Assembly (NCBI RefSeq): GCF_003344785.1
Contig: NZ_QPMK01000005.1
Location: forward strand, 62,001-126,000
From: Thalassococcus profundi
GTDB taxonomy: Bacteria; Pseudomonadota; Alphaproteobacteria; Rhodobacterales; Rhodobacteraceae
Length of the DNA stretch: 64,000 bases
Direction: 5' to 3'
Below the pieces are notes generated by a model that did no database searches, was not told the origin of the DNA, and was given only the letters and a program-made list of their open reading frames with translations. Shown piece by piece: positions 1-56,717 of the stretch; positions within the stretch are counted from its first letter, which is position 1, and every line of letters begins with the position of its first letter. A program made the position numbers and the translations under genes.

Positions 1-1770
1 CGACACCGGCTGCGTGTGGTCGGCAGACACTTCGGGCGTGGCGACCGCGTCGCCGTGGTCGACGTCCGGAAGCGGCCCGCGCGGCACGGTGGGATCGGTG
101 ATGTAGGTGTAGGGATATTGCGACGGCGGCACGAAAGGAAGCGCCCCCAGCGGAATACGGTAACCGACCGGGCTGTCGCCCGGCACGAGGAAGACATGCC
201 CGCGTCGCAGCTTCCATTTCTCGGATCGCCAGCGGCGGCCATGGGCGCGCGACTGCCAGGCCTGGATCGGCATGACATAGCCCGTGGGTTCGGTCAGACC
301 GCGCGCGAAGACCGTCGCGATGCGGTGGCGTTCCTCGGGGTCCTTGAGCTTGTTGTTCTCGGGTGTCACGTTCTCCGGCAAGTTCCCTTCCTTGATGATC
401 CACTCCGCCGGATCCTCGTAGGCGGGCACGGCAAAATCCGGCTCCAACCCCAGTTCGGTCGCCAGTGTGGCCATGAAGCTCTCGGCCGACTTGGCATCGA
501 CGCCGGTTTCGGCGGTTTCGGTGGCGATGAGATCGGCATCGGACCAGATCGGTCTCTCGTCATTGCGCCAGTAGAGCGAGAAGGTCCAGCGCGGCAGGGT
601 TTCGCCGGGATACCACTTGCCCTGCCCGTAATGCAGGAAGCCGCCGGGGGCGAAGCGGTCGCGCAGGCGGCGGATCAGCTTGTCGGCCAGCCCGCGTTTC
701 ATCGGACCGACGGCGGCGGTATTCCACTCTTCGGCCTCATAGTCGTCGATGCTGACGAAGGTCGGCTCGCCGCCCATGGTCAGGCGCACGTCGCCGGTTT
801 CGAGCGCGGTATCGACCTGCCGTCCAAGCGCGTTGAGCCGGTCCCAGGCCTCGTCCGAGAACGGCTTGGTGATGCGCGGGTGCTCGGCCACGCGGGTGAC
901 CTGCATGTCGAAATCGAAGGTGGTCTGCACCTCTCCGGCGGCGGTGAATCCACCCGCGATGGGGGCCGCGTTCTGGTAGTGCGGCGTCGCGGCCAGCGGG
1001 ATGTGCGACTCCCCTGCGAACAGCCCCGAGGTCGGGTCCAGCCCGATCCAGCCGGCGCCGGGCAGAAAGACCTCGACCCAAGCGTGCAGGTCGGTGAAAT
1101 CGTGATCGGTGCCCGACGGCCCGTCGAGCGCCTGCAGATCCGGTTTCAGCTGAATGAGGTAGCCCGAGACGAAGCGCGCCGCGATCCCGAGGTGCCGCAG
1201 CACGTTGACCAAGAGCCAGGAACTGTCGCGGCAGGACCCCAGCGCCTTGGTCAGGGTCTCTTCGGGCGTCTGGACCCCGGCCTCCATCCGGATGGTGTAT
1301 TCGATGTCGCTGGCGATCTTGGCATTCAGCATCACCAGCCAGTCGACGATGCGGGTCTTGTCGCGCGGGATTTGTGCCATGTACTCGGCCAACTGCGCGC
1401 TTGGCGGATCGACGCGGCGGTAGATCGACAGGTCGTCGGTCAGCTCGGGGGGATAGTCGAAGGGGTAATATTCGGCGCTGTCCTCGACGAAGAAATCGAA
1501 CGGATTGTAGACCGACATGTCGGCGACCACGTCGACCTCGATCCTGAATTCACGCACCGGCTCGGGAAAGACGTAACGCGCCATCCAGTTGCCGTAGGGG
1601 TCCTGCTGGTGGTTCACGAAATGCGGCTGCGGCGAGACCTTGAGCGAATGCGAAATCACCCGCGTCCGGCTGTGCGGCGCGGGTCGCAGGCGGATGATCT
1701 GGGGCGACAGGGTGACGTTGCGGTCGTAGGTGTAATGGGTGAGGTGGTGAATACTTGCGTAGATGGCCAT
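1..1770 (-). CDS. Transglutaminase-like / DUF2126 family protein (partial, C-terminus beyond window)
   Basis: The reading frame is open from the ATG at 1770 to the left edge (590 codons) with no stop, so the gene is cut by the window. The first ~110 residues are the beta-rich N-terminal domain seen in bacterial transglutaminase-like proteins. A transglutaminase core follows: the catalytic Cys is about residue 180 in LGSCRDSSW, the His about 229 in DLHAWVEVF, and the Asp about 245 in GLDPTSG. From about residue 285 ([12 protein letters not shown]) the sequence matches the DUF2126 part of the ~1100-residue two-domain family, so about half is missing. Family members are presumed cytoplasmic cysteine peptidases or transamidases; the substrate is unknown. 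The start is supported by GGAG 12 bases upstream. The gene heads away from the iron-linked operon, with a 133-base gap. Confidence 0.9.
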
Positions 1771-54123: not shown

Positions 54124-54152
54124 TTGACGCCCCCGGCCCCCCGCCATAATGT
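54124..54152 (+). promoter_or_regulatory. ilvBN promoter
   Basis: TTGACG (54124-54129), a spacer of exactly 17 bases, then TAATGT (54147-54152). The -35 differs from consensus by one base and the AT-rich block upstream (around 54070-54120) could act as an UP element. The leader peptide starts about 25 bases after the expected transcription start. Confidence 0.72.
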
Positions 54153-54183
54153 CCCGCCCACGCACGCAAGGGAGTCCCGACCA

Positions 54184-54231
54184 GTGAATCCGCTAGTCGA
54201 CATCGTAGGAACAATGCGCATGGGCCGGTGA
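54184..54231 (+). CDS. ilvBN leader peptide (attenuation)
   Basis: A 15-residue reading frame from a GTG with AAGGGAG 9 bases upstream: MNPLVDIVGTMRMGR, stop TGA. It contains Leu, Val, Ile and Val in a five-residue stretch, the end-product amino acids of the downstream enzyme. Leu is CTA and one Val is GTA, codons otherwise avoided in this GC-rich DNA, which would make the ribosome sensitive to charged tRNA. The peptide has no function of its own; ribosome position decides the RNA fold downstream. Too short for ordinary gene calling. Confidence 0.8.
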   Translation: MNPLVDIVGTMRMGR

Positions 54232-54283
54232 CGGACGCCATAACGGTACCCCATGCGCCCCCGAACCCCACGGGGGCTTTTTT
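54216..54283 (+). promoter_or_regulatory. ilvBN attenuator (antiterminator/terminator pair)
   Basis: Terminator: GCCCCCG/CGGGGGC with 7-base loop (54257-54263, 54271-54277) and six T (54278-54283). Alternative fold: GCGCATGGG (54216-54224, inside the leader frame) pairs perfectly with CCCATGCGC (54250-54258), which overlaps the base of the terminator stem. Stalling of the ribosome on the Leu/Val/Ile codons (54193-54207) would free the first arm and favour the alternative fold, giving read-through into ilvB. Confidence 0.75.
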
Positions 54284-54320
54284 GTGCGCCAAAGACGCAA
54301 CATCGTAAACGGAGAACACG

Positions 54321-56075
54321 ATGACACGCCAGATGACCGGAGCGAAAATGGTGGTTCAGGCCCTGAAGGATCAGGGTGTGGACACGGTATTCGGATATCC
54401 CGGCGGCGCCGTGCTACCGATTTACGACGAGATCTTTCAGCAGAACGGCATCCGGCATTTCCTGGTCCGTCATGAACAGGGCGCGGTCCATGCCGCCGAA
54501 GGCTACGCCCGCGCCACCGGCAAGCCCGGCGTGGTGCTCGTGACCTCGGGCCCCGGGGCCACCAACGCGGTCACCGGCCTGACCGACGCGCTGATGGATT
54601 CCATCCCGCTCGTGGTCCTGACCGGCCAGGTGCCCACCTTCATGATCGGATCGGACGCCTTCCAGGAAGCCGACACCGTCGGCATCACCCGCCCCTGCAC
54701 CAAGCACAACTGGCTGGTCAAGGACACAGAGAAGCTGTCGGGCATAATCCACCAGGCGTTTCACGTCGCCACCTCGGGCCGCCCCGGCCCGGTGCTCGTC
54801 GACATCCCCAAGGACGTGCAGTTCGCCAGCGCCGACTACACACCCAAGGCCAAGGCGCCGGTCAGCCATTACCAGCCGCAGGTCAAGGGCGACATGGAGA
54901 CGATCACCGAACTGGTCGAGGCGATCGAGACCGCCGAACGCCCGGTGTTCTACACCGGTGGCGGCGTCATCAATTCCGGCCCCGCCGCCAGCCAGTTGCT
55001 GCGCGAACTGGTGGACGCGACGGGCATCCCGATCACCTCGACCCTGATGGGGCTGGGCTGCTACCCGGCTTCGGGCAAGCACTGGCTGGGCATGCTGGGC
55101 ATGCACGGGCTGTACGAGGCGAACCTCGCCATGCACGGCTGCGACCTGATGATCAACATCGGCGCGCGGTTCGACGACCGGATCACCGGGCGGCTCGATG
55201 CGTTCAGCCCGAAATCGCGTAAGGCGCATATCGACATCGACCCCTCTTCGGTGAACAAGGTGATCCGCGTCGACATGCCGATCATCGGCGACGTGGGCCA
55301 TGTGCTCGAGGATGTGCTCAAGGTCTGGAAGGCGCGCGGCCGCAAGGTCAACCGCGAAGCGCTGGCCAAGTGGTGGAAGCGCATCGACGAGTGGAAGAAG
55401 GTCGATTGCCTCAAGTTCAAGCCGTCGCAGGGCAGCATCAAGCCGCAGCACGCGCTGGCCCGGCTCGAAGCTCTGACCAAGGGCCGCGACCGCTACATCT
55501 GCACCGAGGTCGGCCAGCACCAGATGTGGGCAGCGCAATATCTGGGGTTCGAGGATCCGAACCGCTGGATGACCTCCGGCGGGCTGGGGACCATGGGCTA
55601 CGGCTTTCCCGCCTCGATCGGCGTGCAGGTGGCCCATCCCGATGCGCTGGTGATCAACGTAGCCGGAGAGGCGTCCTGGCTGATGAACATGCAGGAGATG
55701 GGCACCGCGATCCAGTACCGACTGCCGGTGAAGCAGTTCATCCTCAACAACGAGCGTCTGGGCATGGTGCGCCAGTGGCAGGAGTTGCTGCACGGCGAGC
55801 GCTATTCGCATTCGTGGTCCGAAGCCCTGCCCGATTTCGTCAAGCTGGCCGAGGCTTTCGGCGCCAAGGGCATCCTCTGCAAGGACCCGGCGGATCTGGA
55901 CGACGCGATCATGGAGATGCTTGAGTATGACGGTCCGGTGATCTTCGACTGCCTGGTGGAAAAGCACGAGAACTGCTTCCCGATGATCCCGTCGGGCGAG
56001 CCACACAACAAGATGCTGCTGGGCGAGGCCTCGACCAAGGACGCCATCGGAACCAAGGGCGCGGTCATGGTCTGA
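54321..56075 (+). CDS. ilvB: Acetolactate synthase large subunit
   Basis: 584 residues, GGAG upstream of the ATG. A thiamine diphosphate enzyme in three domains: an N-terminal domain with the catalytic Glu in VRHEQGAVHAAEGYARATGK, a central FAD/anchor domain (GLGCYPASGKHWLGMLGMHG), and a C-terminal ThDP-binding domain (GLGTMGYGFPASIGVQVAHP then the GDG-variant AGEASWLMNMQEM). It makes acetolactate or acetohydroxybutyrate, the first common step to valine, leucine and isoleucine. Note that the usual ThDP motif GDGSF reads GEASW here; the same reading is common in alphaproteobacterial forms. Expression is expected to be controlled by the attenuator upstream. Confidence 0.97.
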   Translation: MTRQMTGAKMVVQALKDQGVDTVFGYPGGAVLPIYDEIFQQNGIRHFLVRHEQGAVHAAEGYARATGKPGVVLVTSGPGATNAVTGLTDALMDSIPLVVLTGQVPTFMIGSDAFQEADTVGITRPCTKHNWLVKDTEKLSGIIHQAFHVATSGRPGPVLVDIPKDVQFASADYTPKAKAPVSHYQPQVKGDMETITELVEAIETAERPVFYTGGGVINSGPAASQLLRELVDATGIPITSTLMGLGCYPASGKHWLGMLGMHGLYEANLAMHGCDLMINIGARFDDRITGRLDAFSPKSRKAHIDIDPSSVNKVIRVDMPIIGDVGHVLEDVLKVWKARGRKVNREALAKWWKRIDEWKKVDCLKFKPSQGSIKPQHALARLEALTKGRDRYICTEVGQHQMWAAQYLGFEDPNRWMTSGGLGTMGYGFPASIGVQVAHPDALVINVAGEASWLMNMQEMGTAIQYRLPVKQFILNNERLGMVRQWQELLHGERYSHSWSEALPDFVKLAEAFGAKGILCKDPADLDDAIMEMLEYDGPVIFDCLVEKHENCFPMIPSGEPHNKMLLGEASTKDAIGTKGAVMV

Positions 56076-56084
56076 CCAGGAGCC

Positions 56085-56132
56085 AAAAGTTTTCAGAAAA
56101 CTTTTGCCGAGACTTTTCTGAAAAGTCTCGGC
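56085..56132 (+). repeat. Twin perfect hairpins between ilvB and ilvN
   Basis: Hairpin 1: AAAAGTTTT, loop CAG, AAAACTTTT (56085-56105). Hairpin 2: GCCGAGACTTTT, loop CTG, AAAAGTCTCGGC (56106-56132). They are directly adjacent, both stems are perfect, and the loops CAG and CTG are reverse complements, so the pieces TTTTCAGAAAA and TTTTCTGAAAA are inverse copies. The first hairpin lies 10 bases after the ilvB stop. The form resembles a small repeat I have seen in roseobacter genomes. Confidence 0.7.
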
Positions 56133-56156: not shown

Positions 56157-56717
56157 ATGTCCGCCCTACAAATCAAAAAAGGCTCGTCCAAGCATTCGGC
56201 CTACAACCTGCGCCCCACCTTTTCGGACGTGCAGGAAACCCACACCCTCGCCGTGCTGGTCGAGAACGAACCGGGCGTGCTGGCCCGCGTCATCGGTCTG
56301 TTTTCCGGGCGCGGCTACAACATCGACAGCCTCACCGTGGCCGAAGTCGACCACAAGGGCCACCTGAGCCGCATCACCATCGTCACCACCGGCACTCCAC
56401 AGGTGATCGAGCAGATCAAGGCGCAGCTGGGCCGCATCGTTTCGGTGCACGAGGTGCATGACCTGACGGTCGAAGGCGGATCGGTCGAACGCGAACTTGC
56501 GCTGCTCAAGGTCGCGGGCAAGGGCGACAATCGGGTAGAGGCGCTGCGCCTCGCGGACGTGTTCCGCGCGCAGGTGGTCGACAGCACGTTGGAAAGTTTC
56601 ATCTTTCAGCTGACGGGCACACCCGAGAAGGTCGATGCCTTCGCCGACCTCATGCGCCCGCTGGGTCTGATCGAAGTGGCCCGCACCGGCGTCGCGGCGC
56701 TCAGCCGCGGCACCTGA
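56157..56717 (+). CDS. ilvN: Acetolactate synthase small (regulatory) subunit
   Basis: 186 residues, long IlvH-type form. The N-terminal ACT domain is visible (THTLAVLVENEPGVLARVIGLFSGRGYNIDSL in outline, with TVAEVDHKGHLSRITIV), followed by the second regulatory half (RELALLKVAGKG, RLADVFRAQVVDST, ESFIFQLTGTPEKVDAF). It binds valine and gives feedback inhibition of IlvB. The stop lies inside the 3' end of the convergent gene (17-base overlap). AAAGGA upstream supports the ATG. Confidence 0.96.
   Translation: MSALQIKKGSSKHSAYNLRPTFSDVQETHTLAVLVENEPGVLARVIGLFSGRGYNIDSLTVAEVDHKGHLSRITIVTTGTPQVIEQIKAQLGRIVSVHEVHDLTVEGGSVERELALLKVAGKGDNRVEALRLADVFRAQVVDSTLESFIFQLTGTPEKVDAFADLMRPLGLIEVARTGVAALSRGT

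Follow-up and report, generated by a model that had tools for sequence, protein, structure and literature searches.

Background

An ilvB leader peptide in Alphaproteobacteria is called previously described in the accessible text of Corbino et al. (2005, PMC1273637), which cites Vitreschak et al. (2004). For Caulobacter crescentus, an ilvBN attenuator with a terminator and, in its leader, Ile and Val codons in tandem is attributed to Tarleton et al. (1994) in the excerpt of PMC4117421. The excerpt of PMC10272879 presents the ilvB-II motif of Corynebacterium and the ilvB-OMG motif of various phyla as ilvB leaders with peptides rich in Leu, Val and Ile codons, for which attenuation is proposed. 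Within the Rhodobacterales, the leader of cysS, uORFC-8-2, is a candidate ribosome-mediated attenuator the codons of which match the gene (PMC8632094, in the portion available). Here, we describe a leader upstream of ilvBN in Thalassococcus profundi and compare it with these systems. All coordinates refer to the forward strand of the window, i.e. the whole stretch of 64,000 nucleotides that was analysed.

Organization of the ilvBN upstream region

The ilvB gene (54321-56075), coding for the acetolactate synthase large subunit (NCBIfam NF006581, 1127.8 bits for a cut-off of 974), is followed by ilvN (56157-56717), coding for the small subunit (NF008864, 226.2 bits for a cut-off of 119). The preliminary description of this region, which was made from the letters alone, had placed upstream of ilvB a promoter, a 15-codon GTG frame, a terminator with a 7-bp stem and six T, and an alternative fold that uses bases of the leader frame and overlaps the terminator base; each of these parts was found in the sequence as described. 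The promoter (54124-54152) reads TTGACG (54124-54129) and, after a 17-base spacer, TAATGT (54147-54152), which agrees with TATAAT at three of six positions only and was therefore missed by a simple scan. A likely Shine-Dalgarno sequence, AAGGGAG (54168-54174), was recognized by eye upstream of the leader frame (54184-54231), which runs from GTG (54184-54186) to TGA (54229-54231) and encodes MNPLVDIVGTMRMGR. Its codons 4 to 8, CTA GTC GAC ATC GTA (54193-54207), are designated the regulatory codons from the Leu/Val/Ile pattern in relatives.

The last leader codons contain arm A (GCGCATGGG, 54216-54224) of a helix named P1, as seen from the pairing in the alignment of relatives, which also places arm B (CCCATGCGC) at 54250-54258. 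Arm A is adjoined by a small hairpin, P2 (CCG-GUGA-CGG, 54225-54234), identified by covariation in the alignment, and the loop of this hairpin contains the stop codon. The intrinsic terminator (54257-54283), also kept in the alignment, is made of the 7-bp stem GCCCCCG/CGGGGGC with a 7-base loop (54257-54277) and six T (54278-54283). Bases 54257-54258 (GC) are common to P1 and the terminator.

Taken alone, the signal in the region 54124-54320 is barely, or at best modestly, above chance: the fold has a z of -2.19, with 6 of 200 shuffles equally good, and the region has one terminator-like site for a mean of 0.8 in shuffles. It is the conservation in relatives that marks the element as more than chance.

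Two adjacent inverted repeats, AAAAGTTTTC..GAAAACTTTT and CCGAGACTTTTC..GAAAAGTCTCGG, were noticed by eye between ilvB and ilvN (56085-56132), and similar repeats lie between these genes in two relatives of the genus (L002 and L005).

Conservation of the leader in the Rhodobacterales

The upstream regions of 85 ilvB relatives were compared, namely five from genomes of the genus and 80 that rank best among the 596 ilvB relatives confirmed in the genome collection; the nearest named ones belong to Marivita. Arm A followed by a T run was present upstream of ilvB in 83 of the 85, with the same layout. As for the two misses, L080 is interrupted by a contig end and L075 is without the element. The latter comes from an A+T-rich genome, in which a short frame, MHQKTKRVLVTNKY, and a terminator, without arms A and B, were seen by eye upstream of ilvB. 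The promoter has the form TTGAC-16..19-xAxxxT in 80 of the 83 relatives, with a spacer of 17 in 76.

A covariance model, R1, was built from the 83 aligned ilvB leaders; among 292 genomes sampled from the order it matched 263 at E<=0.01, and these cover 108 of 113 genera. The conservation of frame and stems upstream of ilvB, which had been proposed as a check in related Rhodobacteraceae, was thus borne out both in the 83 relatives and across the order. No R1 match was present in 29 of the 292 genomes; 12 of the 20 listed among these belong to genus g7. All 12 listed g7 genomes are without a match and the genus is absent among the matches listed, which looks like a loss of the ilvB leader. The gene behind the match was read in 16 cases (4 strong matches and 12 of the weakest), and it was ilvB in 15 and a Bcr/CflA-type gene in one (L233); an R1 match alone therefore does not identify the downstream gene. 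In the divergent ilvB leaders of other genera found among the weakest matches, the Leu/Val/Ile codons, both arms and the terminator are kept and the letters are altered (by eye). In genus g9 (L234, L236 and L242), the frame ends in TAG directly before arm A and not in P2, again with the Leu/Val/Ile codons kept (by eye). These leaders constitute a natural variant of the putative switch, and the stop codon in the P2 loop is hence not universal.

In the window's own genome, a search at E<=5 gave a single R1 match, at the ilvB leader, and no further copies. Rfam gave no match at the gathering score in the window or in six leader loci. A crude terminator finder was run on 29 ilvB loci, of which one (L188) belongs to the window's family and has the leader; in the other 28, from other alphaproteobacterial families, neither a leader of this frame by this finder nor an R1 match at E<=1 was found. 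In one locus of another alphaproteobacterial family (L196), a different leader-like frame, MSKILVPRAPFLGRT, was seen by eye upstream of ilvB; a terminator is present, and the hairpin that encloses the stop codon differs as well. Six weak R1 matches (L118, L119, L121, L122, L138 and L139, E 0.003-0.02) turned out to be plain terminators on reading, which covered these among the weak rows (the others have E 0.007-0.09). When 385 genomes of the class were searched with a string pattern, 13 contained a match, and 4 contained one to the reversed pattern used as control; this pattern misses the window itself, the stop of which is TGA. Four of its matches are in the window's family and five are efflux leaders already found (see below), and L220, L222, L224 and L225 have no T run behind the match and look like chance.

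Leader peptide and codon usage

A leader frame is present in all 83 relatives and has 15 codons in 77. It starts with ATG in 67, GTG in 14 and TTG in 2, and stops with TAA in 67, TGA in 15 and TAG in one, L071, the frame of which is off the family pattern and is also without the Leu/Val/Ile pattern. At least five Leu, Val or Ile codons precede arm A in 76 of the 83 leaders (four in 5, three in 1 and two in 1), and codons 4 to 8 are mostly of this kind across the family. Furthermore, CTA accounts for 50 of the 103 Leu codons of the leaders versus 77 of 3794 in the ilvB genes that follow them (Fisher 2e-50), and GTA for 124 of 231 Val codons versus 170 of 3638 (Fisher 4e-86), corresponding to odds enrichments of 46-fold and 24-fold, respectively. 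Leu-Val-Asp-Ile-Val had been named as the regulatory residues, with CTA and GTA as rare codons. The Leu/Val/Ile residues at codons 4 to 8 and the bias towards CTA and GTA hold family-wide, but the Asp at codon 6 is peculiar to the window's peptide, this codon being Val, Ile or Leu in 80 of the 82 other leaders.

The 3' end of the frame is biased in a different manner. CGG is the last codon of 78 of the 83 leaders and accounts for 361 of the 1965 Arg codons of ilvB; three codons before the last one, CGC stands in 81 of 83. The last-codon bias points to a constraint on codons at the RNA level: the leader peptide would end in RMGR because P1 and P2 constrain those codons, and a role of the nascent peptide is therefore not needed to account for this ending.

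Helices P1 and P2 and their overlap with the terminator

P1 comprises nine pairs between arms A and B, and 99.1% of its 747 cells are paired in the 83 rows of the alignment. Two double changes keep the pairing, one from G-C to A-U (L098) and one from A-U to G-C (L071). Of six slid registers, five score higher in covariation than the true one, and the +2 slide has two double changes as well; the best slide pairs in 66.5% of cells versus 99.1% for the true register. Since P1 varies so little, its covariation lends modest support. P2 has the form CCG-GU(A/G)A-CGG and is paired in 95.2% of cells, with three double changes that keep the pairing (in L092, L055 and L089) and a covariation score reached by none of 500 shuffles; L057 and L078 have insertions, around which its pairing is maintained as well (by eye). 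This hairpin around the stop codon is a part of the alternative fold that the preliminary description did not contain. A requirement for a GNRA loop in P2 was considered and dropped, the loop being GUAA or GUGA in 79 of 83 ilvB leaders but containing UAG in 6 of 15 efflux leaders. A further hairpin, at 54237-54247, appears in the fold predicted for the window's leader and not in that for L048; it is not claimed.

The distances between the parts are nearly fixed. In 77 of 83 leaders, the beginning of arm A is 32 bases past the start codon, and in 82 of 83 the stop codon lies 13 bases beyond the beginning of arm A. Gap, overlap and fold energies were measured in 82 of the 83 leaders, L071 being left out because its frame does not stop in P2. 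The gap between stop and terminator is 24 to 26 bases in 76 of these 82 leaders and 25 in the window, and arm B overlaps the terminator by 2 bases in 69, by 1 in 12 and by 3 in 1; a cruder count that allows a tenth P1 pair gave mostly 2 or 3. The two-base overlap, which had been singled out as worth a look, is thus real and conserved, and its restriction to 1-3 bases in all 82 leaders argues for a feature and not an accident.

On average over the 82 leaders, a shortened P1 with the complete terminator is favoured by 1.0 kcal/mol over the complete P1 with a shortened terminator (range -0.5 to 1.5), and it is also the best fold predicted for the region 54124-54320. As both folds would coexist at equilibrium, exclusion of the terminator by P1 is not thermodynamic, and antitermination would therefore need kinetic or positional help.

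Proposed mechanism

These observations are best explained by ribosome-mediated attenuation of ilvBN transcription in response to charged tRNAs for Leu, Val and Ile, a reading to which we assign a probability of about 0.88. We infer leader translation, termination, the sign of the response and the way in which a two-base overlap would suffice; the sequence parts, their conservation, the codon bias, the covariation and the fixed distances are shown here. When the amino acids are ample, the ribosome would reach the stop codon at 54229 and cover arm A and P2; the terminator 25 bases downstream could then fold, and transcription would stop near 54283. Under shortage of Leu, Val or Ile, the ribosome would stall at codons 4 to 8 and leave arm A free, so that P2 and P1 could form before the second terminator arm is transcribed. 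P1 would then retain two bases at the bottom of the terminator stem, beside the T run, and the polymerase would continue into ilvB. An intrinsic terminator must close at the stem pairs adjoining the T run. The small overlap may suffice if P1 forms first, the two withheld terminator pairs being precisely those.

The ribosome footprint is given as ~30 nt in all, with ~10 nt downstream, in the excerpt of PMC4824070. With this footprint, a ribosome with codons 4 to 7 in the A site would leave arm A free and a ribosome at the stop would cover it. In the E. coli test system of the same excerpt, a ribosome at the stop no longer hinders the terminator when the gap exceeds 27 nt (PMC4824070); the gaps found here fall just under this value and some hindrance of the terminator by a ribosome at the stop is thus possible or even to be expected, which counts against the proposal. 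On the whole, the positions of arm A, stop codon and gap fit readthrough through P2 and P1 upon stalling and termination upon arrival at the stop.

It may also be that the leader and the terminator act as proposed, with P1 as a mere helper of pausing or folding, and that readthrough is decided otherwise, for instance by ribosome-polymerase coupling or by the position of the ribosome relative to the terminator. The overlap of 1-3 bases in 82 of 82 leaders and the coexistence of the two folds at equilibrium speak for such a scheme, as does the E. coli system, in which the distance between ribosome and terminator by itself tunes termination (PMC4824070, in the excerpt available). However, P1 and P2 are conserved in sequence and, within small variation, in pairing, arm A would be covered by a ribosome at the stop and free with a ribosome stalled at codons 4 to 7, and for pure coupling arm A would be superfluous. 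We therefore consider this scheme unlikely, although it is the most serious competitor of attenuation by alternative folding.

Related leaders upstream of Bcr/CflA-type efflux genes

The strong R1 matches outside the order are located before MFS genes and not before ilvB, and second R1 matches inside the order precede MFS genes as well. The same RNA frame was recognized before Bcr/CflA-type genes in many alphaproteobacterial families (L112-L117, L134-L136, L176, L180, L182-L186 and L233), and several of the peptides end like VVVG..RRMDR. Ten of the efflux proteins were scanned; the best family was TIGR00710 (Bcr/CflA efflux) in all ten, seven being over the cut-off of 200.9 bits and those of L117, L180 and L182 slightly under it. 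The L134 protein is above the TIGR00710 cut-off, and the proteins of L115, L116, L136, L137, L176 and L186 were assigned by eye from their N-termini.

A second model, R2, was built from nine efflux leaders, with no ilvB leader included, and matched at E<=0.001 in 20 of 387 genomes of the class, six in the window's family and fourteen elsewhere (six of the latter being training sequences). Each of the six matches in the window's family falls on an R1 match before ilvB, the window's leader having an E of 1.1e-16. Outside this family, all 13 places read precede a Bcr/CflA-like gene, in ten family codes; the fourteenth is G377 (L187), with an E of 8e-4 for R2 and 0.02 for R1. Since the model trained on efflux leaders finds the ilvB leader and the one trained on ilvB leaders finds efflux leaders, the two kinds of gene seem to share one RNA frame. 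P1 is weaker in the efflux set, since arms A and B are unpaired in 28 of 160 cells, a count for which the arms of L117, L183, L185 and L186 were placed manually, in whole or in part.

The 15 proteins labelled as leader-bearing in a 39-protein Bcr/CflA tree are clustered, with 5 changes versus 12.2 after shuffling (0 of 500 as low), and do not form one clade; L137 and L186 carry this label on a partial match alone, and the sample is unbalanced because the 24 without a leader (of 30 fetched) all come from the window's family. From 61 genomes, 30 Bcr/CflA genes of the order were collected by similarity, and a terminator was called upstream of five; one of these, L144 (identical in place with L135), has the leader, and the leader of L145 looks decayed.

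The efflux version is spread broadly and the ilvB version is confined to one order, which suggests that ilvBN may have borrowed the frame. In its wider form, this idea holds that a portable RNA module read by the ribosome, made of a leader that ends in the stop-codon hairpin P2, arms A and B and a terminator overlapped by 1-3 bases, controls Bcr/CflA-type genes in at least 10 alphaproteobacterial families outside the window's own, was recruited to ilvBN in the Rhodobacterales by way of rare Leu, Val and Ile codons, and works by withholding only the bottom pairs of the terminator. We hold this wider proposal to be about evenly balanced between true and false.

The occurrence of the frame before Bcr/CflA-type genes might also indicate that the leader senses a translation inhibitor or a general slowing of ribosomes rather than Leu, Val and Ile, like the leaders of some efflux genes. 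In the case at hand, however, the leader codons agree with the pathway of the gene, ilvBN, and CTA and GTA, which are rare, show strong enrichment; moreover, the efflux leaders are rich in Val and less biased towards GTA than the ilvB leaders (12 of 41 versus 124 of 231 Val codons, p 0.006). Inhibitor sensing at ilvBN is accordingly very improbable. Finally, an ordinary conserved intergenic sequence, with a terminator and a chance short frame, has a negligible likelihood despite a fold and terminator near chance in the region 54124-54320 alone, and is already refuted unless the alignment is wrong, as frame, length, codons, spacing and helices are kept in 83 of 85 relatives and R1 matches in 263 of 292 genomes.

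Comparison with known attenuators

The kind of switch proposed here is textbook and expected biology, as an alphaproteobacterial ilvB leader and the Caulobacter attenuator have been described, and the Rhodobacterales ilvB leader may already be covered in print. In the literature searched, which was seen in part and lies mostly outside subscription papers, no statement was found on the small overlap, on P2 or on the link to efflux genes. The ilvB leader of Vitreschak et al. (2004) shares with the one in the window the gene, the bacterial class and the presence of a leader peptide, a likeness drawn from the citing passage alone (PMC1273637). Likewise by description, the Caulobacter crescentus attenuator resembles it in the ilvBN leader, the Ile and Val codons and the terminator (PMC4117421, in excerpt). 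The ilvB-II and ilvB-OMG motifs are similar, as described in the available part of PMC10272879, in having an ilvB leader with a peptide rich in Leu, Val and Ile codons; the window is without an Rfam match at the gathering score. The cysS leader uORFC-8-2 belongs to the same order and shows a similar match of codons and gene, but differs in its cysteine codons, its gene and its RNA (PMC8632094, in the portion available).

With R1 matches in 263 of the 292 genomes sampled, the ilvB attenuator would be a clean and widespread case for asking how small the overlap in such a switch can be. The likeness to the efflux leaders suggests that, through a change of codons, a leader RNA can come to serve an efflux gene in place of an amino acid operon or the reverse, which, if true, would be a direct route to new ribosome-sensing switches. 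In attenuators of the E. coli trp and ilv type, the antiterminator and the terminator have most of an arm in common. The family described here has putative stalling codons, predicted alternative helices and a putative terminator as these do, but differs from them in that its two folds overlap by 1-3 bases.
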